Shown in pieces: positions 36,616 through 51,812 of a stretch of DNA of 64,000 nt. A model generated the notes under the pieces. That model was given only the letters and a program-made list of their open reading frames with translations, was not told the origin of the DNA and ran no database searches. Position numbers and translations under genes: made by a program. This DNA comes from Ramlibacter agri (GTDB lineage Bacteria; Pseudomonadota; Gammaproteobacteria; Burkholderiales; Burkholderiaceae_C). The DNA is taken from NCBI RefSeq assembly GCF_012927085.1, contig NZ_JABBFX010000006.1, forward strand, positions 62,001-126,000. The letters run 5' to 3'. Position 1 is the stretch's first letter. Each line of letters begins with the position of its first letter.

Positions 36616-37185
36616 TCAGGCCACCGTCTTGCGCACGGCCGCGACCAGCGCCGGGTCCGCCGGACCCAGCTTGCCGGACTTCGCGGCAATGCGGCCCTGG
36701 CGATCCAGCAGGCTGATCACCGTGGAGTGATTGAACTCGCCGTTGGCCAGGCGCCGGTACTGGATGCCCAGCACGGCGGCCACCTTGCGCGCGGTCGCTT
36801 CCTCGGCCCGTGCCAGCACCCACTGGCCGTCGCAGCCATGCGCCTGCGCGGCCTTCTTCAGCACCGCGGGCGTGTCGCGCGCGGGGTCGAAGCTCACCAT
36901 GAGCACGCGTACATTGGCGCGCTCGGGGGCGGGCAGCGCACGCAGGGTGGCCTGCACCGTCTCGAAGATCATCGGGCAGACCATGTCGCACGAGGTGTAG
37001 AACATGCTCGCCAGCACCGGCAGGCCCTGCAGCGAAGCGAGTTGGAAGGCGTTGCCGTCCTGGTCGGTGAGCGTGGCGTCGAGGCGGTAGATGGAGTCGC
37101 CCGGTGCGTTGGTGGCAAAGGCCGGCAAGGCAGCGAGCGCGCCCAGCGACAGCAGCGCCGCGCGGCGTGAATACAGGGTGTTCAT
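36616..37185 (-). CDS. SCO1/SenC-family copper chaperone-like protein
   Basis: A 189-residue exported thioredoxin-fold protein. A signal peptide with a twin-arginine feature (SRRAALLSLGALAALPAFA) is followed by the copper site: C66 and C70 in FYTSCDMVCPMIF, and H153 in GEFNHSTV. SCO proteins deliver or reduce copper for cuproenzymes, classically the CuA centre of cytochrome oxidase. Here the gene overlaps nirV by four bases downstream of a copper nitrite reductase gene, so supplying copper to NirK is the natural inference. The signal peptide and all three ligands are intact. Confidence 0.9.
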   Translation of the reverse strand: MNTLYSRRAALLSLGALAALPAFATNAPGDSIYRLDATLTDQDGNAFQLASLQGLPVLASMFYTSCDMVCPMIFETVQATLRALPAPERANVRVLMVSFDPARDTPAVLKKAAQAHGCDGQWVLARAEEATARKVAAVLGIQYRRLANGEFNHSTVISLLDRQGRIAAKSGKLGPADPALVAAVRKTVA

Positions 37186-37958
37186 GATTGTCCTTTCGCG
37201 GGACGCACGCAGCGGAAGCCCAGCGTGCTGGTGCTGTCCGCGGCGTTGAGCGACGACAGCAAGGCGATGCGCATGAGCACCGCGTAGCTGTCGCGATCGA
37301 TGATGTTGATGGCGCCGGCGCCGCAGAACTTCAGCAGGTCCGGGTCGCCCTGGGTGCGGCTGTCGCCGGCGATGAAGAGGGCATTGAAGTCGTCCACCCA
37401 TTCCCAGACAAGGCCGTGCAGGTCGCGCACGCCCCACAGGTTGGCTTCGCCGCCCACGCTGGCCAGTGCTTCGCCGCCCGGCTTCTCGTACCAGCCCAGG
37501 ATGCGGCGGGTCCAGGCCGGGTCGCGGCGCGCGTCGGCGCGGCTCGCATCGGCCGCGGCAGCGTATTCCCATTCCAGCCAGGTCGGCAGGCGGCCGCCCT
37601 CTTCCTCGCAGAAGGCGCGGGCGGCGAACCAGCTCACTTCGGTCACCGGCATGTCGGCGCGCAGGCCCGGATCCACCGGCGTCTGCCACTGCAGCAGGTA
37701 GCGCGCATCGGCCAGCACGGAAGGCGCCTCGCCGCGCCGCCACTCGGGATGCGCCTGCACGAAGGCGGCGAACTCCGCCACCGTGACCGGCAGCGCGCGC
37801 ATGGCGAAGGGCTGCACGTCCACTGGCGTCGACAAGGTCGGCACCGCCCCCTGCGGCAGCACGCTCTCGAAGCGGCCACCGGGCAGGTCCACGTAGTTCG
37901 CGGCCTGCGCCGGCGCCGCGAGCGCGGCCAGCAGGGCGAGGACGGGCAGCACCTTCAC
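37182..37958 (-). CDS. nirV: NirV-like formylglycine-generating-enzyme family protein
   Basis: A 258-residue exported protein of the SUMF1/FGE fold. Signal peptide MKVLPVLALLAALAAPAQA, then GGRFESVLP, PVTVAEFAAFVQAHPEW, MPVTEVSWFAARAFCEEEGGRLPTWLEWEYAAAA, GVRDLHGLVWEWVDDF and STLGFRCVRPA, all fold signatures. Genes of this type (nirV) commonly follow nirK in denitrifiers, and this one starts 10 bases after the nirK stop. Its biochemical job in nitrite reduction is not established. It ends in an ATGA overlap with the SCO1-like gene. Confidence 0.88.
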   Translation of the reverse strand: MKVLPVLALLAALAAPAQAANYVDLPGGRFESVLPQGAVPTLSTPVDVQPFAMRALPVTVAEFAAFVQAHPEWRRGEAPSVLADARYLLQWQTPVDPGLRADMPVTEVSWFAARAFCEEEGGRLPTWLEWEYAAAADASRADARRDPAWTRRILGWYEKPGGEALASVGGEANLWGVRDLHGLVWEWVDDFNALFIAGDSRTQGDPDLLKFCGAGAINIIDRDSYAVLMRIALLSSLNAADSTSTLGFRCVRPAKGQS

Positions 37959-37968
37959 GACGCTCTCC

Positions 37969-39447
37969 TCACTCCTTGGCCTGGTTCTGCGCCGGCGGCT
38001 TGGCGGCGCGCTGCGCCTTCACGTCCTCCTTGGACACCTGCCCGCCCGGATTGCCCCAGCTATTGAGCACGTAGGTCAGGATGTTGGCGACCTCGTCGTC
38101 ATTCAGCTGGTTCATCGGCGGCATCACCGAGTTGTATTCCTGGCCGTTGACGGTGACCTTGCCCGAGAGGCCGTGCAGCACCACGTTGACCGCGCGCTTC
38201 ACGTCCGCTGCCAGGAAGTCCGACTTGGCCAGCGGCGGGAACACACCCGGCATGCCCGCGCCGTTGCCCTGGTGGCACACCGAGCAGGTGCCGGCGAAGA
38301 GCGCCTGGCCCGCCTTGGCCTGCTCGTCGGCGGTCAGCTTGCCGGCCGCGGCCGCCTGGGTGGCCTGCGCCACGGCTGCGAGGTTCGGGCCGGCGCGGTC
38401 GCCCAGGTACACCGCATCGAGTTCCTTGCCCGAATAGATGCCCTTGTTCTCGTCGCCCTCGATCTTCAGGATGGCCAGCGCGCCCTTGTTGAACGCGCGG
38501 AAGATCGAGTGGTCCACCAGCACGTAGCTGCCCGGCACCTTGGCGGTGAAGGTCGCGATGGCCGCGCCGCCGGCGGGGATCAGCGTGGTCTGCACGTTCT
38601 TCTGCACGTTGGTGCCGCCCTCGAAGCGCACCTGGTCGAAGATGGCGCCGATCACGTGGAAGCTGGACACCAGGTTGGGCCCGCCGTTGCCGACATAGAG
38701 GCGCACCTTCTCGCCGACCTTCGCGGTCATCGCCTTGTCGCCGGTCAGAGCGCCTTCCGCGCCGTTGAACAGCACGTAGGTCGGCTTCTCGTCGATCGCC
38801 TTCTCCATGTCGAAGGCCTGGTTGCCCTTCTCGCGGTACTTGCCGGCGGTGTAGAAGTCGCCCTGCATCACGTAGTACTCGCGGTCCACCTTGGGCAGGC
38901 CCTGCGGCGGCTCGACCAGGATCAGGCCGTACATGCCGTTGGCCACGTGCATGCCCACCGGCGCGGTGGCGCAGTGGTAGACGTAGATGCCTTCGTTGAG
39001 GGCCTTGAAGGTGAACTGCGATTCGTGCCCGGGCGCGGTGAAGCTGGACGCGGCGCCGCCGCCGGGGCCGGTGACCCCGTGCAGGTCGATGTTGTGGGGC
39101 ATCTTGCTGCCCGGGTGGTTCTTCAGGTGGAATTCCACCGTGTCGCCCTGGCGCACGCGGATGAAGCTGCCGGGGACGCTGCCGCCGAAGGTCCAGAAGG
39201 TGTAGTTCACGCCTTCGGAGATCTGCATCGTCTTCTCGACCACCTCCAGGTCCACGATGACCTTGGCCGGGTAGTTGCGGTTGGTGGGCGGCGGCACGTG
39301 CGGCGGGCTGGTCAGCACGGCGTGAATGGGTTCGCCGCGCGGCGGGCCGAAGTCGCCGGTGGCCGCCTTCGGCGCCGCCAGGGACAACAGGGGGAGGCAG
39401 GCACTCGCCGCGACGAGCAGCGTGCGCGCCAGGTTCAGGGCTCTCAT
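37969..39447 (-). CDS. nirK: Copper nitrite reductase NirK with fused C-terminal cytochrome c
   Basis: Periplasmic enzyme reducing nitrite to nitric oxide, 492 residues. Signal peptide (about 1-25), two cupredoxin domains, then a class I cytochrome c domain. Copper ligands are visible: MPHNIDLH (type 1 His, catalytic Asp, type 2 His), [17 protein letters not shown] (type 2 His, type 1 Cys, His, Met), FHVIGAIFD and DHSIFRAF for the remaining type 2 His. The haem site is CSVCH at 388-392 with a likely Met ligand in [14 protein letters not shown] ribosome site precedes the ATG at 39447. The fused cytochrome would feed electrons directly to the type 1 copper. First gene of nirK-nirV-SCO1-DUF3079, with FNR-like and NsrR-like sites upstream. 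Confidence 0.96.
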
Positions 39448-39467
39448 TTTTTTCCTCCGGATGCTTT

Positions 39468-39488
39468 AGGTGCATCGCGGATCAACCT
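39468..39488 (-). promoter_or_regulatory. Candidate NsrR site in the nirK promoter
   Basis: AGGTGCATC-GCG-GATCAACCT is an imperfect 9-3-9 inverted repeat (7 of 9 pairs) with the same left arm as the perfect site before norB. It lies 21-41 bases upstream of the nirK ATG, and its centre is 41.5 bases from the centre of the FNR-like box, so it would cover the transcription start. Confidence 0.65.
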
Positions 39489-39512
39489 TATCGAGCCACC
39501 GCCGGAACCGGC

Positions 39513-39526
39513 TTGACGCACGTCAA
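39513..39526 (-). promoter_or_regulatory. FNR/DNR-type box upstream of nirK
   Basis: TTGAC-GCAC-GTCAA, a perfect 5-4-5 inverted repeat fitting the FNR/DNR/NnrR consensus (TTGAT-N4-ATCAA) with one change in each arm. It is the nearer of two such boxes to nirK, 66-79 bases before its ATG, suitable for a class II activator at about -41.5. Confidence 0.65.
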
Positions 39527-39560
39527 CGGCCCCGCCTTTCCCCTGCCGCCGACCACTTCC

Positions 39561-39574
39561 TTGATCCACGTCAA
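39561..39574 (+). promoter_or_regulatory. FNR/DNR-type box upstream of norB
   Basis: TTGAT-CCAC-GTCAA matches the FNR/DNR consensus with one mismatch in the second arm. It is 63-76 bases before the norB start codon. A -41.5 placement would put the transcription start near 39609, inside the NsrR-like repeat, with GATATT (39597-39602) as a possible -10. Confidence 0.65.
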
Positions 39575-39602
39575 ATACCCATGAGGCTGGACCCAGGATA
39601 TT

Positions 39603-39623
39603 AGGTGCATTCACAATGCACCT
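39603..39623 (+). promoter_or_regulatory. NsrR operator before norB
   Basis: AGGTGCATT-CAC-AATGCACCT is a perfect 9-3-9 inverted repeat, in the style of known NsrR operators (GATGCATTT-type arms, A/T at the centre). It lies 14-34 bases before the norB GTG and its regulator, nsrR, is the second gene of the operon. Confidence 0.8.
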
Positions 39624-39636
39624 TAAAGAGGTTACC

Positions 39637-41916
39637 GTGAGGTCAAACAACACCCTCTGGCGCTGGCTGGCACTGATCTTCGTGCTGTCGTTCGGCGCCC
39701 TGTCGTACCTGGGCTGGCAGATCTACCTGACTGCCCCGCCCATCCCGCAGGCCGTCGTCAGCGCCAGCGGGCAGACGCTCTACACGGGCGAACAGATAGG
39801 CCGCGGCCAGCAGGTCTGGCTGGCGGCCGGCGGCCAGCAGCAAGGCAGCGTCTGGGGCCACGGCGCCTATGTGGCGCCCGACTGGTCGGCTGACTGGCTG
39901 CACCGCGAAGCGCTGGCCTTGCAGGCGTTGCGCGCCAAGTCGATCGCGCTCGATGCGAAGAACCTGAGCCCGTCAGAACGCGGCGCAGTGCAAGGCATCG
40001 TGCAGGACGAGATGCGCCGCAACACCTACGATGCCGCCACCGGCAAGGTCACGGTGAGCGATGTCCGCGCGCAGGCGATCAGGCAGACCGCGGACCACTA
40101 CGCCGGCCTGTTCGGCACCGACCCGGCGCTGGCCAAGCTGCGCGAGCAGTACGCCATGACCGACGGCGAAGTGGTGCAGGCCTCGGACCGTGAAGCGCTG
40201 ACCGCGTTCTTCTTCTGGAGCGCCTGGGCCGCCGCGACCGACCGTCCCGGCGAAACCGGCCTCTCGTACACCAGCAACTGGCCTTACGAGCCGCTGGTGG
40301 GCAACACCATGACGACCTCGGCCGCGATGTGGTCGATGGCTTCGGTGATCCTGCTGCTGGCCGCCATCGCCGCCATGCTGTGGCTGCACGGCGCCGGCAA
40401 GCACGAGGAAGACGCCGTGGTGCCCAAGGCCGACCCGCTGATCGGAGCGGCCGCCACGCCTTCGATGAAGGCCACCCGCAAGTACTTCTTCGTCGTCATC
40501 GGCCTGCTGCTGCTGCAGATCGGCATGGGCGCCATCACCGCGCACTACGCGGTGGAAGGCAAGTCGTTCTTCGGCTTCCCGCTCGCCGAGTTCCTGCCCT
40601 ACGTGGTGAGCCGCACGGCGCACACCCAGGTCGGCATCTTCTGGATCGCCACCGCCTGGCTGGCCACCGGCCTCTACATCGCGCCGCTGCTCGGGGGCAA
40701 GGAGCCGAAGTACCAGAAGCTGGGCGTCGACTTCCTGTTCTACGCGCTGCTGCTGATCGTCGTGGGTTCGACCGCCTGCGGCTGGCTCGGCAGCCTGCAG
40801 AAGCAAGGCACCGACTTCAGCTTCTGGATCGGCAACCAGGGCCTGGAATACACCAGCATGGGCCGTGTCTGGCAATACCTGCTGTTCATCGGCCTGCTGC
40901 TGTGGGCCCTGCTCCTCGGCCGCGCCCTCTGGCCCGCGCTGAAGACGCCTTCGGAAAGCCGCGGCCTGATCGCCATGGTGTTCCTGTCGGCCACCTGCAT
41001 CGGCGGCTTCTACGCCAGCTCGCTCGCCTGGGGCCAGCATACCCACTACTCGATGGTCGAATACTGGCGCTGGTGGCTGGTGCACCTGTGGGTGGAAGGC
41101 TTCTTCGAAGTGTTCGCCACCGCCGTCATCGCGCTGCTGTTCGTCAAGCTGGGCCTGGTCCGCGCCGGCAGCGCCAACCGCGCCATCATCGCCGAGACCA
41201 TCGTGTTCCTGTTCGGCGGCATCCTGGGCACCCTGCACCACCTGTACTGGACCGGCACGCCCACCTCGGTGATCGCCGTCGGCGCCGTGTTCTCGGCGCT
41301 GGAAGTGGTGCCGCTCACGCTGATCGGCCTCGAAGCGCTGCAGAACTGGAAGAAGTCGCAAGGCGTCGCCTGGCTCGATGCCTACAAGTGGCCCGTGCTG
41401 TGCTTCGTCGCGGTGGGCTTCTGGAACACCGTCGGCGCCGGCCTCCTGGGCTTCGCCATCAACCCGCCTGCCTCGCTGTACTACGTTCAGGGCCTCAACA
41501 TGACCGCCGCCCACGGCCACGCCGCGCTCTTCGGTGTCTACGGCATGCTGGGCATCGGCCTGATGCTGTTCTGCCTGCGTGGGCTGTATGCCCGCAACCT
41601 GCACGCCGACGGCCTGCTGAAGCCCGCCTACTGGGGCCTCAATATCGGCCTGGCCATGATGGTGTTCCTGTCGCTGCTGCCCGCCGGCATGTACCAGGCC
41701 TGGGCCAGCATCACGCAAGGCCTGTGGTACGCCCGCTCGGCGGAGATCGTCCACTCGCACGTGATGGAAACGCTGGTGTGGCTGCGCGTGCCGGGTGATA
41801 TCGTGTTCTCGATCGGCGCGCTGTACCTGGCCATCTATGCGCTGCGGCTGCTGGTGCCCGGCAAGGCACGGGCTGTCGCGGTGCCCGCGGCGGAGGTGGC
41901 CGCAGCCGCACGTTGA
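39637..41916 (+). CDS. norB: Quinol-dependent nitric oxide reductase NorB (qNOR)
   Basis: Inner-membrane enzyme reducing two NO to N2O with electrons from quinol, 759 residues. The length, about twice that of the NorC-dependent NorB, and the large periplasmic segment after helix 1 (about 35-215) mark the single-subunit qNOR type, so no norC is needed. Haem/FeB ligands are in the catalytic part, for example SRTAHTQVGIFW, LHHLYWTGTP and AAHGHAALFGVYG. The start is GTG at 39637, eight bases after AAAGAGG; an ATG at 39616 exists, but it lies within the NsrR operator. First gene of a long operon with nsrR, nnrS and nrdJ. Confidence 0.95.
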   Translation: MRSNNTLWRWLALIFVLSFGALSYLGWQIYLTAPPIPQAVVSASGQTLYTGEQIGRGQQVWLAAGGQQQGSVWGHGAYVAPDWSADWLHREALALQALRAKSIALDAKNLSPSERGAVQGIVQDEMRRNTYDAATGKVTVSDVRAQAIRQTADHYAGLFGTDPALAKLREQYAMTDGEVVQASDREALTAFFFWSAWAAATDRPGETGLSYTSNWPYEPLVGNTMTTSAAMWSMASVILLLAAIAAMLWLHGAGKHEEDAVVPKADPLIGAAATPSMKATRKYFFVVIGLLLLQIGMGAITAHYAVEGKSFFGFPLAEFLPYVVSRTAHTQVGIFWIATAWLATGLYIAPLLGGKEPKYQKLGVDFLFYALLLIVVGSTACGWLGSLQKQGTDFSFWIGNQGLEYTSMGRVWQYLLFIGLLLWALLLGRALWPALKTPSESRGLIAMVFLSATCIGGFYASSLAWGQHTHYSMVEYWRWWLVHLWVEGFFEVFATAVIALLFVKLGLVRAGSANRAIIAETIVFLFGGILGTLHHLYWTGTPTSVIAVGAVFSALEVVPLTLIGLEALQNWKKSQGVAWLDAYKWPVLCFVAVGFWNTVGAGLLGFAINPPASLYYVQGLNMTAAHGHAALFGVYGMLGIGLMLFCLRGLYARNLHADGLLKPAYWGLNIGLAMMVFLSLLPAGMYQAWASITQGLWYARSAEIVHSHVMETLVWLRVPGDIVFSIGALYLAIYALRLLVPGKARAVAVPAAEVAAAAR

Positions 41917-41927
41917 TCCTCAAGCCC

Positions 41928-42392
41928 ATGAAACTCACCGCCTTCACCGACTACAGCCTGCGGGTGCTGATGTACCTGGCCACCGACCCGGCGCAGCGCA
42001 CCACCATCGCCCGCATCGCGGCCGCCTACGGCATCTCCGAGAACCACCTGGTGAAGGTCGTGCACTTCCTCGGCCAGCAGGGTTGGCTGAAGAACGTGCG
42101 CGGCAAGGGCGGCGGGCTGGAGCTGGGCCTGCCGCCGGAGCGCATCGTGCTGGGCCAGGTGGTGCGCGCGACCGAAGGCGAGGCCGTGGTGGCCGAGTGC
42201 TTCGGCGAAGGCGGCGACTGCTGCATCGCACCGAGCTGCCGTTTGCGCGGCGTGCTGCGCGAAGCGGTCACCGCCTTCGAGGCCGTCCTGGACCGCTACA
42301 CCCTGGCCGACCTGGTGAGCAACCGGCAGCAGCTGGCGCAGGTGCTGTTCTTCGAGCAGCCACCGGCGCGGCGCGCCAAGGCGGCCGCATGA
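41928..42392 (+). CDS. nsrR: NO-sensing Rrf2-family repressor NsrR
   Basis: A 154-residue iron-sulphur repressor. The DNA-binding domain starts MKLTAFTDYSLRVLMYLA, the standard NsrR N-terminus, with RIAAAYGISENHLVKVVHFLGQQGW as the helix-turn-helix. Cluster cysteines are C91, C98/C99 and C104 (ECFGEGGDCCIAPSC). In the family, NO destroys the cluster and releases DNA. The gene starts 11 bases after norB and overlaps the next gene by four bases. Inverted repeats of NsrR type lie upstream of norB and of the divergent nirK, so both operons are likely targets, with autoregulation. Confidence 0.94.
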   Translation: MKLTAFTDYSLRVLMYLATDPAQRTTIARIAAAYGISENHLVKVVHFLGQQGWLKNVRGKGGGLELGLPPERIVLGQVVRATEGEAVVAECFGEGGDCCIAPSCRLRGVLREAVTAFEAVLDRYTLADLVSNRQQLAQVLFFEQPPARRAKAAA

Positions 42393-42721
42393 CGGAAGAA
42401 CGCTTCGCCTACGAAGGGCCGCGGGAGCTGCTGCCCACCATCGTGCAGGCGTTGGAGAAGGTGGTCGACCCCGAGGTCGCCCTCAACATCGTAGACGTCG
42501 GCCTGGTGTACGGCGTGACGGTGCGCGAAGGCCGCATGGACGTGAACATCACCATGACCTCGGCCGCCTGCCCGGTCACCGACATCATCGTCGACGACGT
42601 CGAGAACGCGCTCGACGACGCGCTGCCGCCCGATCTGAAGATCCACGTCGAACTCGTGTGGGAACCGCCATGGACACCACAGCGCATGAGCCCGCGCGCC
42701 CGCGCCTTCATGGGCTGGTGA
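42389..42721 (+). CDS. DUF59/MIP18-family iron-sulphur assembly factor (PaaD/SufT-like)
   Basis: A 110-residue single-domain protein. Signatures: ALEKVVDPEVALNIVDVGLVYGVTV and MTSAACPVTDIIVDDVENAL, with the conserved Cys of the family (in AACPVTD). Family members help mature or repair [Fe-S] proteins. The gene is coupled to nsrR by an ATGA overlap, so repair of NO-damaged clusters, perhaps that of NsrR, is a reasonable inference. It overlaps the next membrane gene by about 52 bases. Confidence 0.88.
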   Translation: MTEERFAYEGPRELLPTIVQALEKVVDPEVALNIVDVGLVYGVTVREGRMDVNITMTSAACPVTDIIVDDVENALDDALPPDLKIHVELVWEPPWTPQRMSPRARAFMGW

Positions 42722-43803
42722 GCGCGCGGCGCCTGCTGGGCGCCACGCTGTTCGCCTGCGTCGCCGCTTCGCTGCTGGCGGGCATCGCCGGCGGGTTGAT
42801 GCGGGTGGGCATCGTCGTCGCCAGCGCGGACTGGCTCGGGCGCGCCGCGCTTTCGCATGCGGCATTGATGATGTGCGGCTTGATGGGCACGGTCATCGGC
42901 ATCGAACGCGCCGTCGCCGCCAGGCACCGGTTCGCGTGGAGTGCGCCACTCCTCTCGGGCACCGCCGGCCTGCTGCTGCTGCGCGGTGCGAACACCGCGG
43001 CGGCTTTCCTGCTGCTCGCCGCCGGCATCGCCTTCATCGCGGTGAACGCACTGCTGCTGCGGCGCCAGCGCGCAGCCCACACCTTCCTGCTGCTGGCGAG
43101 CGCCTGTGCCTGGGCCATCGGCAACTTCCTGTTTGCAGCCGCTGCCGCGCCGGTGGCCGTGCTGCCCTGGTGGTTCGCCTTCCTCGTGATGACCGTCGCC
43201 GCGGAGCGGCTGGAGATGACGCGGCTGATGCGCCGCCGCCCCGCGGCGCAACCGCTGCTGGCGCTGGTCCTCGCCTTGCTGCTGCTGGGCGCCGCGCTAT
43301 CGGGCGTGGCGCCGGTGGCCTGCGGCGTGCTGTTCGGCCTCGCGCTGCTCGCCCTGTCCGCGTGGCTCTTCACCTTCGACATCGCCCGGCGCACCGTGCG
43401 CGCGCAGGGCTTGCCACGCTACATGGCCGTGTGCCTGCTCGCCGGCTACGCCTGGCTCGCCGCCGGCGGCCTGGCCTGGGCCGCCACTGCGCTCGGCCTG
43501 CCCGCACGCGACATCGCCTTGCACGCGCTCGGCCTCGGCTTCCTCTTCAGCATGATCCTGGGCCACGCGCCGGTGATCCTGCCGGCCATCGCGCGCATCA
43601 AGCTGCTGTTCGGCAACTTCTTCTACCTGCCGCTCGCCGCCCTGCACCTCTCGCTGCTGCTGCGCCTGTTCGGCGGCCTCGCCGATTTCCAGGCGCGGCG
43701 CACCGGCGCCCTCCTCAATGCCGTGGCGCTCGCTCTGTTCGCCCTCACGGTCGTCGCAGCCGCATGCGCCTGGCGCCGCCGCCACGACACCCGACAACCA
43801 TGA
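42670..43803 (+). CDS. Polytopic membrane protein, NnrS-like
   Basis: A 377-residue protein with about eleven or twelve hydrophobic helices and little else. Conserved-looking His residues occur in LSHAALMMCGLMGTVIGIERAVA and FSMILGHAPVILPAIARIKLLFG, which could bind haem or metal as suggested for NnrS. It is embedded in the NO-response operon directly before a true nnrS, with an ATGA overlap between them. The ATG at 42670 is chosen over a GTG at 42658. The family is uncertain; relation to NnrS is inferred from topology and neighbourhood. Confidence 0.72.
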   Translation: MDTTAHEPARPRLHGLVSARRLLGATLFACVAASLLAGIAGGLMRVGIVVASADWLGRAALSHAALMMCGLMGTVIGIERAVAARHRFAWSAPLLSGTAGLLLLRGANTAAAFLLLAAGIAFIAVNALLLRRQRAAHTFLLLASACAWAIGNFLFAAAAAPVAVLPWWFAFLVMTVAAERLEMTRLMRRRPAAQPLLALVLALLLLGAALSGVAPVACGVLFGLALLALSAWLFTFDIARRTVRAQGLPRYMAVCLLAGYAWLAAGGLAWAATALGLPARDIALHALGLGFLFSMILGHAPVILPAIARIKLLFGNFFYLPLAALHLSLLLRLFGGLADFQARRTGALLNAVALALFALTVVAAACAWRRRHDTRQP

Positions 43804-44993
43804 CGCAGTTCCTCAAGATCGAAGAGCCGCCGCGCGCGGCCGCACCGCGCGGCTTCGCCCTGTGGCAGCTGGGCTTCCGGCCCTTCTACCTGCTGGCCAG
43901 CACTTTCGCGGCCGTGTCCATCCTGCTGTGGGCGCTGCAGTTCACCGGCCACCTGGCCGCGCCTTACCTGCCCGGCCCGCTGTGGCACGCGCACGAGATG
44001 CTGTTCGGCTTCACGCTCGTGGTGGTCGTGGGCTTCCTGTTCACGGCCGGACGCAACTGGAGCGGCCTGCCCACGCCCGCCGGCGGCAAGCTCGCGGCGC
44101 TGGCCGCGCTGTGGCTCGCCGGCCGCCTGCTGGTGCTGACACCCTGGGGCTGGGCCTCGGCCCTGGTGAACGCCGCGTTCCCGCTGGCCGCCGCGATCGC
44201 ACTCGCGATCCCGTTCGTGCGTGCGGGCAACAAGCGCAACTATTTCTTCGTCGGCCTGCTCGTGCTGCTGTCCATCGCGAACCTCGCGGTGCACCTCAGC
44301 CAGCTCGGCGTGCTGGCGCTGCCCGCCTGGGCCGGCATCGGCCTCGGGCTGGACGTGGTGCTGTTCATCCTGTGCGTGATGGGCGGCCGCGTGATTCCCA
44401 TGTTCACCAACAACGGCGTGCCCGGCGCGGGCGCCGAAAAGCGTCCGTGGGTCGAGAAGCTGGCGCTGGGTTCGGTGCTGGCCTTGCTGGTGGCCGATGC
44501 GCTGCAAGTGCCCGCGTGGCTGCTGGCCGCCGTGGCAGCCATCGCCGCCGCCGCGCATCTCACCCGCTGGCTGCTGTGGCGTCCGTGGCGCACGCTGCGC
44601 ACGCCGCTCGTGTGGGTGCTGCACCTGGCCTACGGCTGGATCCCGGTGCACCTCGCCTTGCGTGCGCTAGCGGCCTTGGCCTGGGTTCAGTCGTCCACCG
44701 CCACGCACGCGCTCACGGTCGGCGCGATCGGCGGCCTGGTGATCGGCATGATGACCCGCACCGCGCGCGGCCACACCGCGCGGCCGCTGAAGGCCGATCG
44801 CTGGGACACCAGCGCCTACCTGCTCGTGGCAGCGGCCGCCTTCGTGCGCGTGCTGCTGCCGGTCATCGCGCCGGCGCTGCTGCTGCAGGCGATCCTCGCC
44901 TCCGGCGTGCTCTGGTCCGCGGGATTCGCGCTGTACACCGTGCGCTACTTCAACGTGCTGACTCGCCCGCGGCTGGACGGCAAGCCAGGCTGA
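43800..44993 (+). CDS. nnrS: NnrS family haem-copper membrane protein
   Basis: A 397-residue, twelve-helix inner-membrane protein. NnrS signatures are clear: LWQLGFRPFYLLASTFAAVSILLW, LPGPLWHAHEMLFGFTLVVVVGFLFTAGRNWSG, CVMGGRVIPMFTNNGVPGA, and GAIGGLVIGMMTRTARGHTARPL. NnrS protects cells against NO stress in denitrifiers and Vibrio; its chemistry is not settled. It belongs to the norB-nsrR operon. Confidence 0.93.
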   Translation: MTQFLKIEEPPRAAAPRGFALWQLGFRPFYLLASTFAAVSILLWALQFTGHLAAPYLPGPLWHAHEMLFGFTLVVVVGFLFTAGRNWSGLPTPAGGKLAALAALWLAGRLLVLTPWGWASALVNAAFPLAAAIALAIPFVRAGNKRNYFFVGLLVLLSIANLAVHLSQLGVLALPAWAGIGLGLDVVLFILCVMGGRVIPMFTNNGVPGAGAEKRPWVEKLALGSVLALLVADALQVPAWLLAAVAAIAAAAHLTRWLLWRPWRTLRTPLVWVLHLAYGWIPVHLALRALAALAWVQSSTATHALTVGAIGGLVIGMMTRTARGHTARPLKADRWDTSAYLLVAAAAFVRVLLPVIAPALLLQAILASGVLWSAGFALYTVRYFNVLTRPRLDGKPG

Positions 44994-45039
44994 TCACGAT
45001 CAAGGACGCGCCGGCTCCCTCGAACCTAAAGTGACTTTC

Positions 45040-46200
45040 ATGGAACTGCAGGCATGGAACTTCCGGGGCCGCAAGCTGCGCCCCATCGTCCAGGGTGGCA
45101 TGGGCGTCGGCGTCTCCGCCGGCCGGCTCGCCGGCACCGTGGCTTCCTTCGACGCGATGGGCACGATCTCCTCGGTCGACCTGCGCCGGCTGCATCCGGA
45201 CCTGATGGAGCGCACCGCCCGCCTCGAAGGCCCGGAGGCCAAGGCGCAGATCGATGCGGCCAACCGCGAAGCACTGGCCCGCGAGATCCGTCGCGCGCGA
45301 GAACTCGCGCAGGGCCGCGGCCTCATCGCCGTCAACGTGATGAAGGCGCTGGACCAGTACACGACCTACGTCCGGCAGGCCCTGGAGAGCGGCGCCGACG
45401 CGCTCGCTGTCGGCGCCGGCCTGCCGCTGGACCTGCCGGAGCTGGCGCGCGACTTCCCGCAGGTGGCGCTGATCCCGATCCTCTCGGACGCTCGCGGCGT
45501 GCAGTTGCTGGTGCGCAAGTGGGAGAAGAAGGGCCGGCTGCCGGACGCCATCGTGATCGAGCATCCGCGCCTGGCCGGCGGCCACCTCGGCGCCGCCGCA
45601 CTGGCCGACCTGCAGGACCGCCGCTTCGACTTCGACGTGGTGCTGCCCGAAGTGCTGGCCTTCTTCCGCGCGGCTGGACTGGAAGGCAAGATCCCGCTCA
45701 TCGCCGCCGGCGGCATCGCAAGCCACGAAGACATCGTGCGCCTGCAAGGCCTGGGCGCGGCGGCGGCGCAGCTGGGCACCGCCTTCGCCGTCACCTGCGA
45801 AAGCGATGCGAGCGAGGCTTTCAAGCAGGTGCTGGCCGGCGCCAAGCCCGAGGACATCGTCGAATTCACCAGCGTCGCCGGCCTGCCCGCGCGCGCCGTG
45901 CGCACGCCCTGGCTGGAGAAATACCTGCGGCTGCAGGAGCGCATGCAGAAGCATGCGCACGAAAAGGCGCACTGCACCATGTGGTTCGACTGCCTGGCCC
46001 ATTGCGGGCTGCGCGACGGCAAGGCCGCCTGGGGCCAGTTCTGCATCGACAAGGTCCTCGGCCACGCCCTCAGCGGGGACGTTCGCAAAGGGCTATTCTT
46101 CCGGGGAGCGGGCCGGCTCCCCTTCGGCGAGCAGATCCGCCCCGTGCGCGACCTGCTGCAACAGCTGTGCGGCGACTCCATGGAGGCAAGCAACGCATGA
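45040..46200 (+). CDS. Nitronate monooxygenase family flavoprotein
   Basis: A 386-residue TIM-barrel FMN protein of the 2-nitropropane dioxygenase/nitronate monooxygenase family. It begins ELQAWNFRGRKLRPIVQGGMGVGVSAGRLAGTVASF; FMN-binding parts include IAVNVMKALDQY, DAIVIEHPRLAGGHLG and the phosphate loop IPLIAAGGIASHEDIVRLQGLGAAAAQLGTAFAV. The C-terminal about 70 residues, with several Cys and His (HEKAHCTMWFDCLAHCGLRDG), extend beyond the minimal enzyme. The ATG at 45040 is preferred to a GTG at 45031. It overlaps nrdJ by four bases inside the NO operon. Family enzymes oxidise nitronates; its role under NO stress is not established. Confidence 0.87.
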   Translation: MELQAWNFRGRKLRPIVQGGMGVGVSAGRLAGTVASFDAMGTISSVDLRRLHPDLMERTARLEGPEAKAQIDAANREALAREIRRARELAQGRGLIAVNVMKALDQYTTYVRQALESGADALAVGAGLPLDLPELARDFPQVALIPILSDARGVQLLVRKWEKKGRLPDAIVIEHPRLAGGHLGAAALADLQDRRFDFDVVLPEVLAFFRAAGLEGKIPLIAAGGIASHEDIVRLQGLGAAAAQLGTAFAVTCESDASEAFKQVLAGAKPEDIVEFTSVAGLPARAVRTPWLEKYLRLQERMQKHAHEKAHCTMWFDCLAHCGLRDGKAAWGQFCIDKVLGHALSGDVRKGLFFRGAGRLPFGEQIRPVRDLLQQLCGDSMEASNA

Positions 46201-48605
46201 AGCGCGATCCTTCCCCGAACCAGCTGCCGGCGCTGCCCGCGCAGCAGATCAGCCAGGACGTCCTGCGCGAGAAGTACCTGAAGCCCGGCGAAGCGGCCGA
46301 GGCCGACGTGCTGCGACGCGTCGCGCGCGCACTCGCGAGCGCCGAGGCCGAGCCTGTGCGCGCCGACTGGGAACAGAAGTTCTTCGACAACCTGAATGGC
46401 GGCGCGATCGGCGCGGGCCGCATCATGAGCGCGGCCGGCACCGCGCTGGAAGCCACTCTCATCAACTGCTTCGTGCAGCCGGTGGGCGACAGCATCCAGG
46501 GCCGCGACGACGAAGGCTTCCCCGGCATCTACGAAGCGCTGCGCGAAGCGGCCGAGACCATGCGGCGCGGCGGCGGCGTCGGCTACGACTTCTCGCGCAT
46601 CCGCCCGCGCGGGGCCGAGGTCAAGGCCACGCATTCGCTGGCCTCGGGCCCGTGCAGCTACATGGACGTGTTCGACCACTCGTGTTCGACGGTGGAAAGC
46701 GCCGGCGCGCGCCGCGGCGCGCAGATGGGCGTGCTGCGCATCGACCACCCCGACGTGCTGGAGTTCATCACGGCCAAGCGCACGCCGGGCCGCTGGAACA
46801 ACTTCAACGTGTCGGTGGCGGTGGGCGACGAGTTCATGCGCATCCTGCAGGCCGGCGGCGACTGGGCGCTGGTGCACAAGGCGAAGCCTGGCGCCGCGCT
46901 GGTCGCGCAGGGCGCGCACCTGCGCAGCGACGGTCTGTGGGTGTATCGCACGCTGCCGGCGCAGCAGTTGTGGGACACGGTGATGCGTTCGGCCTACGAC
47001 TTCGCCGAGCCGGGCGTGTTGTTCATGGAGACGATCAACCGCGACAACAACCTGCGGTATGCGGAGCGGATCGATGCCGTGAACCCGTGCGGTGAGGAAG
47101 CCTTGCCTCCGTACGGCTGCTGCGACCTGGGCCCCGTCATCCTCACCCGTTTCGTGAGCCACCCGTTCGGCTTCGGCGGCGCGCCGGCCTTCGACTTCGA
47201 GCGCTTCGCCCGGGCCGTGGCGGTGCAGGTGCGCGCGCTCGACAACGTGCTGGAGATCACGCATTGGCCGCTGCCGCAGCAGCAGGCGGAAGCGGTCTCC
47301 AAGCGGCGCATCGGCGTCGGCTTCACGGGCCTGGGCAATGCGCTGGCCATGCTGCGCCTGCGCTACGACGCGGCCGACGGCCGCGAGATGGCCGCGCGCA
47401 TCGGCCGCTGCATGCGCGATGCCGCCTATGCGGCTTCGGTGGAACTCGCCGCGGAGAAGGGGCCCTTCCCGCTGTTCGACGCGGACCCCTACCTGGAAGC
47501 CGGCACCTTCGCGAGCCGCCTGGACGAGCCGCTCAAGCAGGCGATCCGCCAGCACGGCATCCGCAACAGCCACCTGCTGGCGATCGCTCCCACCGGCACC
47601 GTCAGCCTCGCCTTCGCCGACAACGCGTCCAACGGCATCGAGCCGCCCTTCTCCTGGGCCTACAAGCGCCGCAAGCGCGGGGCCGACAACACCTTCGTCG
47701 AGTACGTGGTGGAAGACCACGCCTGGCGCCTGTTCCGTTCGCTGGGTGGCGACACCACGCAGCTCCCGCCCTATTTCGTCTCGGCGCTGCAGATGCCCGC
47801 CGCGGACCACCTGGCGATGATGGAAGCGGTACAGCCCTTCATCGACAGCGCGATCTCGAAGACGGTGAACGTGCCGGCCGACTACCCCTACGCCGACTTC
47901 CAGGGCCTGTACCTCGAAGCCTGGCGCGCCGGGCTGAAGGGCCTGGCCACCTACCGGCCCAACGAAATCCTCGGCGCCGTGCTGTCGACGGACACCGCCC
48001 CCGCGCCCGAGGTGGAGCGGCGCAAGGTCGACCCGATGCGCGCCATCGTCGAAAGCCGGCCCAAGGGCCAGCTGCCCGGCGTGGTGGAGAAGGTCGAATA
48101 CTGGACGCAGCAAGGCCGGCAGACCCTGTACATCGTCGTGTCCTTCCTGCCGGTGGAAGACGGGCGCGAGCGCGCCATCGAGTTCTTCATGCCGGTGGGC
48201 CAGAGCGGCGAGTCGCAGCAGTGGATCACCTCCAGCATGCGCATGTTGTCGCTGGCCGCGCGCGGCGGCTTCCTGGAGCGCGCGCTGGCCGACATGCGCA
48301 AGGTGCTGTGGGACCGCGGGCCGGTGCGCCTGGGCACGTACACGAAGGCCGACGGCACCGCCGTGCCGATGTGGCACGACTCGGAAGTGGCCGCCATCGC
48401 CTATGCGATCCAGAACATCATCGCGCGGCGCCAGGGCGAGCCTGTCGCGCAACTGGCCACGCCACCGGCAGCGGCGCCCGCGACGGTGGCCACGCCGGGC
48501 CTGATGGCTGGCGCCAAGTGCCCCGAATGCGGTGCCCACGCGATGATCCGCAAGGACGGCTGCGACTTCTGCACCCAGTGCGGGCACGTGGGAACCTGCG
48601 GGTGA
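46197..48605 (+). CDS. nrdJ: Adenosylcobalamin-dependent (class II) ribonucleotide reductase
   Basis: Oxygen-independent ribonucleotide reductase of 802 residues, making deoxyribonucleotides with coenzyme B12. The N-terminus LPAQQISQDVLREKYLKPGE lacks an ATP-cone. Core signatures: NCFVQPVGDSI, MRRGGGVGYDFSRIRPRG, AGARRGAQMGVLRIDHPDVLEFI, the active-site NPCGEEALPPYGCCDLG, and IAPTGTVSLAFADNASNGIEPPFSW. The C-terminus has a cysteine-rich tail (KCPECGAHAMIRKDGCDFCTQCGHVGTCG) probably for redox exchange or zinc. NO inactivates the tyrosyl radical/di-iron class I enzyme and O2-limited cells cannot form it, so a class II enzyme in an NO/anaerobic operon makes sense. Overlaps with both neighbours (ATGA, GTGA) show coupling. 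Confidence 0.94.
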   Translation: MKRDPSPNQLPALPAQQISQDVLREKYLKPGEAAEADVLRRVARALASAEAEPVRADWEQKFFDNLNGGAIGAGRIMSAAGTALEATLINCFVQPVGDSIQGRDDEGFPGIYEALREAAETMRRGGGVGYDFSRIRPRGAEVKATHSLASGPCSYMDVFDHSCSTVESAGARRGAQMGVLRIDHPDVLEFITAKRTPGRWNNFNVSVAVGDEFMRILQAGGDWALVHKAKPGAALVAQGAHLRSDGLWVYRTLPAQQLWDTVMRSAYDFAEPGVLFMETINRDNNLRYAERIDAVNPCGEEALPPYGCCDLGPVILTRFVSHPFGFGGAPAFDFERFARAVAVQVRALDNVLEITHWPLPQQQAEAVSKRRIGVGFTGLGNALAMLRLRYDAADGREMAARIGRCMRDAAYAASVELAAEKGPFPLFDADPYLEAGTFASRLDEPLKQAIRQHGIRNSHLLAIAPTGTVSLAFADNASNGIEPPFSWAYKRRKRGADNTFVEYVVEDHAWRLFRSLGGDTTQLPPYFVSALQMPAADHLAMMEAVQPFIDSAISKTVNVPADYPYADFQGLYLEAWRAGLKGLATYRPNEILGAVLSTDTAPAPEVERRKVDPMRAIVESRPKGQLPGVVEKVEYWTQQGRQTLYIVVSFLPVEDGRERAIEFFMPVGQSGESQQWITSSMRMLSLAARGGFLERALADMRKVLWDRGPVRLGTYTKADGTAVPMWHDSEVAAIAYAIQNIIARRQGEPVAQLATPPAAAPATVATPGLMAGAKCPECGAHAMIRKDGCDFCTQCGHVGTCG

Positions 48606-49882
48606 GCGAGCCCGCCGGCGCGCAGGCCTGGCGCTGGCGGAACGTGCTGCAGTCGCCGCATCGCGTCGGCTTTCTCTCCGGCATGGCGGTGCTGGTTGCC
48701 GCGAGCGCGTGGTGGGCGCTGGTGCAAGCAGATCGTTCGGGACTCGGGCCGGGGCTGCGCTACGCGGTGTCGCCCACGCTCACGCATGCAACGATCATGG
48801 TGTTCGGCTTCATGCCGGCCTTCTTCGCCGGTTTCCTGTTCACTGCCGGGCCGCGCTGGCTGGAGCTGCCACCGCAGCGTGCGTCGTCACTGGTTGCGCC
48901 GCTGGGTGTGCAGGCCATCGGCTGGCTGTCGTGGCTGCTTGGGGCACATCTCGGTGAACGTATCGCGCAGGCGGGTCTCGCGCTCGTCCTGGCCGGATTC
49001 GTCGTCGTGACCTGGCGCTTCGCCGCGCTCGTGCGCGCGAGCATGGCGGACGACCGTGTGCATGCGCGGGTGATCGCCGGCGCGCACATCGTCGGCTGCG
49101 CCTGCCTCGCGGGCGTGCTGGCTGCGTCGCTGGCTGGCGACGGCGCAGTTGCGATCGAGGCCGCACGCACGGGCTTGTGGTGGTTCATCGTGCCGGTGTT
49201 CCTCGCAGCGGCCGACCGGCTGATTCCGTTCTTCTCGGCCGATGCGCTGCCGGCGGGACGCCTGGCCTTTGCGCGGCACAGTCTTGCGCTGCTGCTGGCG
49301 CTGGCGGCGCTGGAGGGTGCTTCGATCCGGGTTACGTGGCCGCATCTGCAGGTCGCAGTCGGCTTGCTGGAATGCGTCGCGACGGTCTTGCTGCTCGCGC
49401 TGGCCATTGCATGGACCCGCGTGAAGCGGCTCGCCAGCCGGCTGCTGGTCATGTTCCACACGGGCTTGTTGTGGCTCGCGCTGTCCTTGCTGCTGGCCGG
49501 CGCCGGCCGCCTGTTGACCACTGGGACCGGTGAAGACGTGTTGCCGCTCGCAGGATTGCATGCGCTGGCGATGGGAGGGCTGGGGTCGCTGATGCTGGCG
49601 ATGGTGAGTCGCGTGTCGGCCGGGCATGGGGGACGGCCGGACACCGGAGACGCCTGGTTGTGGGGGCTGTTCTGCTTGCTGCAGGTCGCGGTGGTGCTGC
49701 GCGTGGCGGCGGCGGTGGTTCCACTGCAAGGCCTGTTGACAGTGGCTGCGCTGGGTTGGGCGGTCACGATGCTGGCCTGGGGCGTGCGCCATGCCGATTG
49801 GTATGGGAGGCCGCGGTTCGTGTCGGCGCGCCAGCATGCCGGGGTCGCTGCGCGAACCCAGCCTACGGGAGAGCAGCGGTAG
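48602..49882 (+). CDS. Second NnrS family membrane protein
   Basis: A 426-residue polytopic membrane protein with about twelve helices, starting at GTG 48602, which overlaps the nrdJ stop (GTGA). NnrS-like features include LTHATIMVFGFMPAFFAGFLFTAGPRWLELP, PVFLAAADRLIPFFSADALPAG and LHALAMGGLGSLMLAMVSRVSAGHGGRP. It differs substantially from the first nnrS product. The last codons (AARTQPTGEQR) are formed by the intergenic repeat at 49841-49866, and the gene overlaps the convergent kinase gene by 20 bases. Last gene of the NO-response operon. Confidence 0.88.
   Translation: MSEPAGAQAWRWRNVLQSPHRVGFLSGMAVLVAASAWWALVQADRSGLGPGLRYAVSPTLTHATIMVFGFMPAFFAGFLFTAGPRWLELPPQRASSLVAPLGVQAIGWLSWLLGAHLGERIAQAGLALVLAGFVVVTWRFAALVRASMADDRVHARVIAGAHIVGCACLAGVLAASLAGDGAVAIEAARTGLWWFIVPVFLAAADRLIPFFSADALPAGRLAFARHSLALLLALAALEGASIRVTWPHLQVAVGLLECVATVLLLALAIAWTRVKRLASRLLVMFHTGLLWLALSLLLAGAGRLLTTGTGEDVLPLAGLHALAMGGLGSLMLAMVSRVSAGHGGRPDTGDAWLWGLFCLLQVAVVLRVAAAVVPLQGLLTVAALGWAVTMLAWGVRHADWYGRPRFVSARQHAGVAARTQPTGEQR
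49841..49866. repeat. Second copy of the GTAGGCTGGGTTCGCG repeat, inside two gene ends
   Basis: On the minus strand 49866-49851 reads GTAGGCTGGGTTCGCG, identical to 6848-6863, followed by CAGCGACCCC closing a short hairpin. It encodes the C-terminal residues of the nnrS-like gene on the plus strand and the TAG stop codon of the histidine kinase on the minus strand. Confidence 0.7.
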
Positions 49883-51812
49883 GGAAAGCAGCCGTCGGCG
49901 AAGGACCCGCCAGCGGCAAACGCAGGTTGAACTCGCCACCGCCGGGCCAGGCGGACCAGCGGCAGCGCGCGCCGAGGGCCTGCGCGCGATTGCGCACGTT
50001 CGACAGGCCGTGGCCGGCCGGTGAACTGGCCGCGGCTCCGTCCGCCACGAAGGGCGCGCCGTTGTCCCGCACGCGCACCTCGACTTCTTCGCCTTCATGC
50101 GATGTCGCCACATCGATGGCGTCGGCCCCGCTGTGCTTGAGGATGTTGGTCAGCACCTCCTGCAGGATGCGCAGCACGTGCAGCGCCCGCTGCGCGTCCA
50201 GCCAGGGCAGCGGCGGCAGGTCCTGCACGCTCCAGGTCAATGCGATGCCGGCCGCCTTCAGCCGCGGGGCCAGGCGGAAGCGCACGGCCGCCAGCAGCGC
50301 CAGCAGGTCGGCATCCGTCGCTTGCAGCGAGTCGATGGCGAGCTTGAGGTCGTCGATGCAGTCCTTCAGCACCAGCGCCGTGTCGACGTTGCTGGCCTGG
50401 CCGCCTTCCACCATGCGCAGCGCCGACATCAGCGAGGACCCGATGCCGTCGTGCATGTCCTGCATCAGGCGCTGGCGCTCGGCGGCCAGCGCCTGCTCGC
50501 GTTCCAGCCCGCGCAGCTGCTCGTGGCTGGCCGTCAGCTCGCGTTCGCGCGCGGCCAGCCGCACTTCGAGCCCCGCGTTGAGCTCGCTCACCTCGCGGAT
50601 CGCGCCCACGTAGCGGCGCCACACGATCGCCAGGAACAGCGCAAACACGCCGATCGAGGTGTAGGCGCCGAGGTAGACGGACTCGATGTCGATCTTGTAA
50701 GTCTGCAGCAGCAGGTCGTGCACGCCCACCGGCAGGTTCAGCGCGAAGAAGGCGAACAGCGCCAGGCCCTCGCGCGAGCGGCTGGCCCACGACGCCCACA
50801 GCCCCGTCCCGGCGATGACGGCGGTCTGCAACGCGATGACGACGTACGCCGCCGGCAGCATCGTGCTCAGGTGCGGCGCAAACCAGGGCAAGGGCATGGT
50901 CGCTAGGGACACCAGGACCACCAGCGTGACCATCGCCGTCGCCAGCCGCGGCATGCGCCGGCCATGCAGGCGGAAAGCGAACGCGAAGACGCACATCTGT
51001 CCCCACGCCAGCGAGTTCACCGTCATCCAGCCGAACCAGGCGTCGGACAGCCAGGGCGGCTGGTTGCCGATGAGGCGGTGCGCGTTGCGCATGGCGTGCG
51101 CCACCGCGGCCAGGAAGATCAGCGCATAGACCGGCTCCCGCCGGCGCACGCACCACACCGCCAGCGCGAACAGTCCGATGCCCAGGAAGGCGCCCGTGCT
51201 GAAGGTGATCGCGTCGACCTGCAGCAGCATGCGCATGCGCCAGCGCCAGCGCAATTCGTCGGCGTCGCCCGCCCAGGCGGTCGACACGGCGCCGCCCACG
51301 CCCGGCTGGCTCGCCATGCGCACCCACACCACGGACGGCGCCGCATCGCCGGCGCCCGGCGCCAGCGGCACCCACAAGGGCCGGTTGAACGAATTCCAGA
51401 CGCGGCTGCCGGAAGACCGCCATGCGATGCGCTCGCCCGCGTACACGGCCACCGTGCCGACCGTCTGCCAGCGCGGGAGGTAGAACACCAGGTCGTTCGC
51501 CACCACGTCGGCGCGCAGGCCGGGCGGCAGGTCGAAGCGGTACCACGTCACTTCGGGTCCGGCGTAGGCCGTGGCCGCGGACGCCGCCATCGCCCGCTGC
51601 GTCGCATGCGGCAGCGTGACGGGGTTCGCGCCCGCGCCGGAGCTCACCGCGGCCGGCGGCGCCGACGGCGCATCCCATCCCGCGCCGGCTTCTTCCACGG
51701 CGATGGCGCGCAGCAGGTGGACGGGTTCGCCCCACGCTGCCGGCATGGCGGCAACGAGGGCGAAGGCCAGCCAGGCGCTAATCCGGCAGCAGGCCCTGGC
51801 GATGCGCTTCAT
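49863..51812 (-). CDS. Membrane histidine kinase with 7TMR-DISM-like sensor
   Basis: A 649-residue kinase. Signal peptide, then a periplasmic beta-sandwich domain (about 30-195; TWYRFDLPPGLRADVVANDLVFYLPRWQTVGTVAVYAGERIAW), then seven transmembrane helices (about 200-400) as in 7TM-DISM sensors, a coiled coil, and a HisKA_3-type dimerisation domain with H454 in LMQDMHDGIGSSLMSALRMVEGG, and an ATPase domain with LTNILKHSGAD and AGHGLSNVRNRAQALGA. This is the NarX/DegS-like HPK7 class that pairs with LuxR-type regulators. The gene lies downstream of, and overlaps by 35 bases, the response regulator gene. The stop falls in an intergenic repeat. The stimulus is unknown. Confidence 0.9.
   Translation of the reverse strand: MKRIARACCRISAWLAFALVAAMPAAWGEPVHLLRAIAVEEAGAGWDAPSAPPAAVSSGAGANPVTLPHATQRAMAASAATAYAGPEVTWYRFDLPPGLRADVVANDLVFYLPRWQTVGTVAVYAGERIAWRSSGSRVWNSFNRPLWVPLAPGAGDAAPSVVWVRMASQPGVGGAVSTAWAGDADELRWRWRMRMLLQVDAITFSTGAFLGIGLFALAVWCVRRREPVYALIFLAAVAHAMRNAHRLIGNQPPWLSDAWFGWMTVNSLAWGQMCVFAFAFRLHGRRMPRLATAMVTLVVLVSLATMPLPWFAPHLSTMLPAAYVVIALQTAVIAGTGLWASWASRSREGLALFAFFALNLPVGVHDLLLQTYKIDIESVYLGAYTSIGVFALFLAIVWRRYVGAIREVSELNAGLEVRLAARERELTASHEQLRGLEREQALAAERQRLMQDMHDGIGSSLMSALRMVEGGQASNVDTALVLKDCIDDLKLAIDSLQATDADLLALLAAVRFRLAPRLKAAGIALTWSVQDLPPLPWLDAQRALHVLRILQEVLTNILKHSGADAIDVATSHEGEEVEVRVRDNGAPFVADGAAASSPAGHGLSNVRNRAQALGARCRWSAWPGGGEFNLRLPLAGPSPTAAFPTAALP

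Follow-up and report, generated by a model that had tools for sequence, protein, structure and literature searches.

The window analysed here, 64,000 nucleotides of Ramlibacter agri DNA (contig NZ_JABBFX010000006.1, positions 62,001 to 126,000), carries on its + strand, at 39637-49882, eight consecutive genes that begin with norB and nsrR, for a nitric oxide (NO) reductase and an NO-sensing repressor, and include nrdJ, for a class II ribonucleotide reductase (RNR). Judged from the sequence, we consider it reasonably probable that they form a compound operon, in which an NO-defence core and a module for oxygen-independent biosynthesis would be read from one promoter acting as an AND gate for anoxia and NO. 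In this arrangement, the five-gene core norB-nsrR-DUF59-nnrSL-nnrS would be joined at its 3' end by the module NMO-nrdJ-nnrS2, where NMO stands for a gene named nitronate monooxygenase in relatives. The FabX/UfaA-like product of this gene would serve the synthesis of unsaturated fatty acids and NrdJ the supply of deoxynucleoside triphosphates, next to a second NnrS. Read-through to the end of the unit would combine NO removal with two products otherwise requiring O2-dependent enzymes. Each part is of a known kind; the combination and the mislabelled gene are the points of interest.

Gene order and promoter of the eight-gene unit

The genes are as follows.

39637..41916, + strand, norB, quinol-type single-subunit NO reductase (PF22085 and PF00115)
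41928..42392, + strand, nsrR, Rrf2-family NO-sensing repressor (PF02082; Cys 91, 98, 99 and 104)
42389..42721, + strand, DUF59/MIP18-type iron-sulfur (Fe-S) assembly protein (PF01883, 60 bits)
42718..43803, + strand, nnrSL, divergent NnrS-type protein (predicted 12-helix heme-copper-oxidase-like fold)
43800..44993, + strand, nnrS1
45040..46200, + strand, FabX/UfaA-like flavin mononucleotide (FMN) protein with a four-Cys motif, the NMO-like gene
46197..48605, + strand, nrdJ, class II (adenosylcobalamin) RNR (TIGR02504, 560.1 bits, cut-off 399.95)
48602..49882, + strand, nnrS2 (PF05940, 188 bits)

Both the uninterrupted order on one strand and the ATGA/GTGA overlaps reported in the initial annotation, which had been made from the DNA alone, were confirmed. 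Five of the seven junctions are 4-bp overlaps, with ATGA for nsrR/DUF59 (42389), nnrSL/nnrS1 (43800) and NMO/nrdJ (46197) and GTGA for DUF59/nnrSL (42718) and nrdJ/nnrS2 (48602). The other two are gaps of 11 bp, between the end of norB at 41916 and the start of nsrR at 41928, and of 46 bp, between the end of nnrS1 at 44993 and the ATG of the NMO-like gene at 45040, for which an alternative start GTG at 45031 is possible. A consensus scan of 39400-50100 gave no sigma-70-like site, and terminator-like sites occurred there at the level of chance (5 compared to 4.2 expected). Control elements were found ahead of norB, and a further candidate lies within the unit:

39561..39574, no strand assigned, FNR-type box TTGATCCACGTCAA ahead of norB, exact consensus match
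39602..39624, no strand assigned, NsrR operator TAGGTGCATTCACAATGCACCTT, one mismatch, 45.5 bp downstream of the FNR-type box
44990..45003, no strand assigned, possible internal FNR-type box CTGATCACGATCAA, one mismatch, in the only gap longer than 11 bp

The palindrome at 39602-39624 was equalled in none of 100 shuffles of the window. It is also the sole place in the 7.2-Mb genome with at most three mismatches to a strict pattern drawn from the palindrome itself, a pattern which more divergent NsrR sites escape. An NsrR operator at the head of the operon is supported by these findings, and the tight unit behind it lends sequence support to the earlier placement of nrdJ under NsrR. The pairing with an FNR-type box recurs in relatives. 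The loci fetched contain altogether 40 oriented NsrR-like contexts, in which one palindrome may count once per strand, and 15 of them carry a perfect FNR-type box 20-90 bp upstream. The spacing amounts to 45.5 bp in 11 of these 15 pairs and lies between 44.5 and 46.5 bp in 14, some of the loci being close kin, while block-shuffled copies of the same DNA (n=3) contained 0 pairs.

In the class II geometry of activators, the box is centred at -41.5. With the box ahead of norB in this position, the start site would fall inside the NsrR operator. Accordingly, the proposed mechanism would comprise an FNR-type activator that occupies a site at about -41.5 in the absence of O2 and an NsrR that leaves the operator over the start site once NO has damaged its cluster, for which Cys 91, 98/99 and 104 are presumably the ligands. 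Regarding the activator, 22 Crp/FNR matches were obtained in the genome, of which 11 exceed the cut-off, and ten loci were inspected. Two of the encoded proteins are of the FNR type, with C-x2-C-x5-C, which we take to be the FNR cysteine spacing, a distant Cys and an ETVSR recognition helix. Since these features point to O2 sensors, the activator reading the norB box is likely an O2-sensing FNR, and the operon would probably need both anoxia and NO. DNR was not recognised among the ten inspected loci, for which no DNR-specific model search was made. Altogether, the sequence gives good support for the operon and for a promoter linked to NO. The promoter would represent a simple design, in which an FNR-type box and an NsrR operator at a recurring distance of 45.5 bp allow a joint reading of anoxia and NO.

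Within the core, the fourth gene had been described as NnrS-like. The window protein itself gave no match to the Pfam family NnrS at E values up to 10; its relative P0059 passes (29.7 bits, cut-off 28), and the fold predicted for nnrSL, heme-copper-oxidase-like with 12 helices, is the same as that of the nnrS1 model according to a second-look aligner. With Foldseek by itself, nnrSL had no match at E <= 0.001, and profile-profile comparison yielded 1.7% and 31%. In 59 of 60 nnrSL loci the DUF59 gene lies directly upstream of nnrSL, also where norB was not seen. This near-fixed pair suggests a requirement of nnrSL for a partner of its own in Fe-S or metal assembly. A part of the DUF59 protein in Fe-S repair, as proposed earlier, is a matter of annotation only.

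The module of nrdJ and the FabX-like gene

The assignment of nrdJ as a class II RNR, likewise made before, is upheld by the TIGR02504 score and by the catalytic region. NrdJ comprises GPCSY at 151, NPCGE at 296, CCDLG at 308 and, towards the C-terminus, CPECG at 775 and CTQCG at 792. NPCGE and CCDLG align with the solved B12-dependent RNR 1xje, and the cysteine of GPCSY faces a valine there, so that the alignment gives no confirmation of this residue. One further RNR large subunit, presumed to be of class I, is encoded in the genome. Since no match to NrdD was obtained in the genome, NrdJ is the only O2-independent RNR found in it. The genome also contains two cobalamin riboswitches, each located just ahead of a gene for a TonB receptor and adjoined by a periplasmic binding protein, which suggests an uptake of B12. 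For R. eutropha H16 without nrdDG, a benefit of B12 has been attributed to NrdJ in the available text of PMC2864759.

The initial annotation had explained the presence of nrdJ by a rescue: under NsrR, it would let NO-stressed cells replace an NO-poisoned class I enzyme, and the whole set would be an NO-stress unit. The NsrR operator at the head of the operon, the overlap of the NMO-like gene with nrdJ together with the tight spacing before the NMO-like gene, and the second, presumably class I, large subunit fit this explanation. So does P. aeruginosa, in which nrdJ expression rises in anoxia if nitrate or an NO donor is present and requires Anr/Dnr, as far as described in the accessible part of PMC4860495. 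By this precedent, a class II RNR under NO-linked control is already known in kind. The FNR-type box, however, ties the promoter to anoxia, a condition in which a class I enzyme, being O2-dependent, would fail anyway. Furthermore, no NsrR-like site was assigned to the NMO-like gene, nrdJ or nnrS2 across the surveyed loci, and norB is a less frequent companion of nrdJ in relatives than nar genes or a FabX-like gene. The rescue of class I is therefore rather unlikely to be the main rationale.

Three candidate modes of control for nrdJ were considered and rejected. NrdR-like boxes occur in 4 of 64 nrdJ upstream regions compared to 4 of 701 controls and are absent from the window. For a control of nrdJ alone by NsrR, a site was observed in only 1 of 64 nrdJ units, that of the window, compared to 12 of 701 controls. 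A general FNR-type promoter for nrdJ finds no enrichment of perfect boxes (4 of 64 compared to 36 of 701). The four loci with NrdR-like boxes ahead of nrdJ (L074, L079, L178 and L180; at -17 in three of them) encode a long form of NrdJ with 956-997 amino acids.

A different explanation would be that NMO, nrdJ and nnrS2 are mere neighbours of the core, with an FNR-type promoter of their own in the 46-bp gap and no control by NsrR. The box CTGATCACGATCAA at 44990-45003 lies at the appropriate place. Of 35 NMO-nrdJ loci, 7 (L128, L152 and L153 among them) have a box with at most one mismatch in the 150 nt preceding the NMO-like gene, and such boxes occur in 25 of 64 nrdJ units compared to 94 of 701 control upstream regions. 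Nevertheless, the box in the window has one mismatch, with 1.31 such matches expected in the window by chance, and it is absent from L282, a relative with the same gene order. The usual geometry would place the start site at the start codon of the NMO-like gene, and perfect boxes, as stated above, are not enriched. A separate promoter is accordingly given only a small probability, and a common transcript reaching nrdJ is preferred.

The sixth gene had been annotated as a nitronate monooxygenase, which would clear nitroalkanes arising from nitrosative stress. The protein matches PF03060 with 109 bits (cut-off 28), and relatives carry that name in their source records. Solved chains named nitronate monooxygenase, however, reach only 31-33 bits, whereas 178 bits are reached by those named 2-nitropropane dioxygenase (such as 7e1q and 9lt5). 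We take 7e1q to be FabX of H. pylori. The alignment with FabX extends over 362 residues and is distant; in it, the four cysteines and the histidine of GGH are kept, the active-site histidine being His182 within GGHLG in the numbering of the window protein. The four-Cys motif is present in all 21 of 21 FabX-like copies placed in the cluster by a codon-usage gene finder, the window included. These four cysteines may bind a [4Fe-4S] cluster. According to the part of PMC8626469 available, H. pylori FabX belongs to the NMO family, carries an atypical [4Fe-4S] cluster that is absent from the other characterised members, and produces unsaturated fatty acids, its host having no fabA. A true nitronate monooxygenase is thus very improbable, and the far stronger likeness to FabX replaces the earlier name. 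The sixth product looks like a flavo-iron-sulfur enzyme of the FabX/UfaA type, with a putative role in the synthesis of unsaturated fatty acids.

No fabA match was obtained in the genome of the window, which is one of 116 among 150 genomes without such a match. Among the 60 family loci of nrdJ, a FabX-like gene was present in the fetched locus of 0 of 24 genomes with fabA compared to 11 of 36 without (Fisher p 0.002), a difference that loses significance when relatedness is taken into account. The count assumes that the searches for fabA and nrdJ used the same 150 genomes; those listed agree, and 96 genomes without a match stand outside the listing. It is suggested that, where denitrifying Burkholderiales have a so-called nitronate monooxygenase next to nrdJ, this label conceals an enzyme of anaerobic lipid synthesis.

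Some further observations concern the two genes. The FabX-like protein of the window starts later than its relatives (386 amino acids compared to mostly 391-417), and the nnrS1/NMO junction, in the region of 45031-45060, is unlike that of L282. In several relatives nrdJ is split near the catalytic cysteine of NPCGE. The nrdJ of L073:8228-11755 carries an insert with a LAGLIDADG domain and a weak intein-splicing match below the cut-off, which is probably an intein at the active site.

Core and module in related genomes

The surroundings of nrdJ were compared in several sets of loci. Among 60 family loci, a chosen subset of the nrdJ matches, norB was found once, nar genes 22 times and UbiUVT five times; NMO lies directly upstream of nrdJ in seven and nnrS2 directly downstream in nine. 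A similar distribution was determined for 80 named nrdJ loci among the matches listed, which are ranked by likeness to the window NrdJ and partly share genomes with the family set: norB 1, nar 30, UbiUVT 4, NMO directly upstream 16, nnrS2 directly downstream 18 and both 5. A frequent order is narK-narGHJI-PpiC-carbonic anhydrase-(NMO)-nrdJ-(nnrS2)-nitroreductase-hemerythrin. In Variovorax beijingensis (L213), the run DUF2249-norB-nsrR-DUF59-nnrSL-nnrS1 comes after such a nar island, at a distance of about 2 kb at most.

Starting from the core, nnrSL matches were obtained in 84 of 399 genomes. The 60 nnrSL loci examined comprise a complete five-gene core in 14 cases, an nrdJ on the same strand in nine and the core together with nrdJ in two. 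Pooling the nrdJ- and nnrSL-anchored loci, with identical copies removed and the window left out, resulted in 154 nrdJ loci, with nar genes in 52, a FabX-like gene in 40, UbiU/V in eight and norB in five. The FabX-like gene accompanies nrdJ in all five of the loci with norB and in six of the eight with UbiU/V.

Within the genus, a match to nrdJ was obtained in 39 and to NarG in 24 of 60 genomes, the own genome counted among the 60. Of the 59 other genomes, 13 contributed the 14 nrdJ loci of the congener set, in which some loci are cut off by contig ends; norB is present in two of the 14 and NMO directly upstream of nrdJ in nine. The nearest congeners are nearly tied by NrdJ score (G097, G404 and G411, all 87%) and show different arrangements. 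G411 (L282) contains seven of the eight genes in the order of the window. For G404 (L281), NMO-nrdJ was found about 5 kb downstream of the end of nnrS1. The core of G097 is syntenic, with a DNA identity of 83%, and stops at nnrS1, with nrdJ located on another contig. L128 (G272) carries NMO-nrdJ-nnrS2 behind the core, with nnrS1 missing. The two nnrSL loci that combine the core with nrdJ, L152 and L153, both from a second genus, contain the complete set of eight genes, but nnrS2 precedes nrdJ; L081, from the genome of L152, runs on into UbiU, UbiV and UbiT. The conservation of gene order, named as a check in the initial annotation, was consequently observed for L282 and in part for L128, but not for the rearranged L152 and L153 or for G097. 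Based on these mixed orders, the eight-gene order is not an old unit: the arrangement of the window is local, and core and module are each recurrent.

Taking these comparisons together, the module looks like a kit for O2-independent biosynthesis, accompanied by UbiUVT in some relatives, and not mainly like a rescue of class I RNR. As a wider suggestion, O2-independent substitutes for O2-requiring biosynthesis may travel as a set beside nitrogen-oxide genes. A more far-reaching idea, to which we give somewhat less than even weight, is that the FabX-like gene, NrdJ and UbiUVT constitute a mobile kit for anaerobic biosynthesis, inserted by Burkholderiaceae into any operon for nitrogen-oxide respiration or defence that they possess. 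In the window, this kit would have been captured by an O2- and NO-gated norB-nsrR operon in a strain without narG, and the so-called NMO would be an O2-independent enzyme for unsaturated fatty acids that passes electrons via its cluster to an acceptor other than O2.

Several results weigh against the compound operon with an anaerobic module. The best NCBIfam match of the nsrR product is NsrR (PRK11014), with 135.4 bits below the curated cut-off of 182. The eight-gene order is rare, as reflected by the low norB counts given above (1 of 60 family, 1 of 80 named listed and 2 of 14 congener nrdJ loci), and the core of G097 stands without the module. Since markers of the nar, nor, nnrS, UbiU/V and FabX-like kinds are all missing from 68 of the 154 pooled loci, many such nrdJ genes have no visible link to nitrogen oxides. 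Regarding the sixth gene, GGHxG is matched in 19 of the 21 FabX-like copies and is missing in two, and the mutual exclusion of fabA and NMO is not significant in phylogenetically independent pairs. FabX of H. pylori uses O2 and yields superoxide (PMC8626469, available part), and therefore a FabX-like enzyme in anoxia would need another acceptor. Finally, no NarG above the cut-off was obtained in the window genome, so that any anaerobic growth by nitrate respiration would be hypothetical.

Known systems and neighbouring genes

Paired sites comparable to those of the window have been predicted before. In the accessible text of Rodionov et al. 2005 (PMC1274295), a DNR site upstream and an NsrR site downstream are given ahead of norB in C. 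violaceum and of COG4309-norB in R. solanacearum, so that these promoters share with the window the pairing of a DNR/FNR-type and an NsrR site ahead of norB. The main text of that work contains 0 mentions of nrd or ribonucleotide, and the 45.5-bp spacing and the module stem from the present analysis. P. aeruginosa resembles the window in its class II RNR, the anoxic and NO-dependent induction being exerted there via FNR-family regulators; the control acts at the promoter of nrdJ itself according to the available part of PMC4860495, whereas nrdJ of the window lies inside the norB-nsrR unit.

In the case of H. pylori FabX, the common features are an FMN protein of the NMO family, the aligned four Cys and the His, and a host without fabA. 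In contrast, the sequences are distant, and FabX uses O2 (PMC8626469, as far as available), while the activity of the window protein is putative. UfaA of N. gonorrhoeae (Isabella and Clark 2011) is linked to anaerobic synthesis of unsaturated fatty acids and discussed for anaerobes lacking FabA, as cited in the accessible text of PMC4549310; it is likened to the sixth gene by the role described in this citing paper and not by sequence. The narGHJI-PpiC-CA-(NMO)-nrdJ-(nnrS2) islands of the Comamonadaceae, where CA is carbonic anhydrase, contain the same type of nrdJ, and the run NMO-nrdJ-nnrS2 occurs in 5 of the 80 named loci listed. There, the module is attached to nitrate reductase, whereas in the window it is attached to norB-nsrR. 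No paper on this gene set was found among the literature matches listed, in a search that left most subscription papers outside.

On the other side of the control region, nirK, an FGE-type gene and SCO1 diverge from the operon, out of a shared intergenic region:

36616..37185, - strand, gene for an SCO1-like copper chaperone, downstream of nirK (PF02630, 68 bits)
37182..37958, - strand, gene for an FGE/SUMF-like protein adjoining nirK (PF03781, 96 bits), presumably nirV-like
37969..39447, - strand, nirK, copper nitrite reductase with a C-terminal cytochrome c domain (TIGR02376, 375.6 bits, cut-off 296.3)
39513..39526, no strand assigned, FNR-type box TTGACGCACGTCAA on the nirK side, exact consensus match

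The nirK side (39470-39526) thereby has its own FNR-type box, with a degenerate NsrR-like site 41.5 bp off, centre to centre. The Cytochrom_C domain of nirK comprises residues 377-464, and the fused nirK forms one run with the FGE-type gene and SCO1 at 36616-39447. In L125, L135, L152, L153 and L161, norB is likewise flanked by nirK and the FGE-type gene. At the opposite end, a histidine kinase and a LuxR-type response regulator are encoded convergently to the operon (49863-52434, - strand). The frame of the kinase, which shows a weak 7TMR-DISM match below the cut-off, overlaps the end of nnrS2 by 20 bp.

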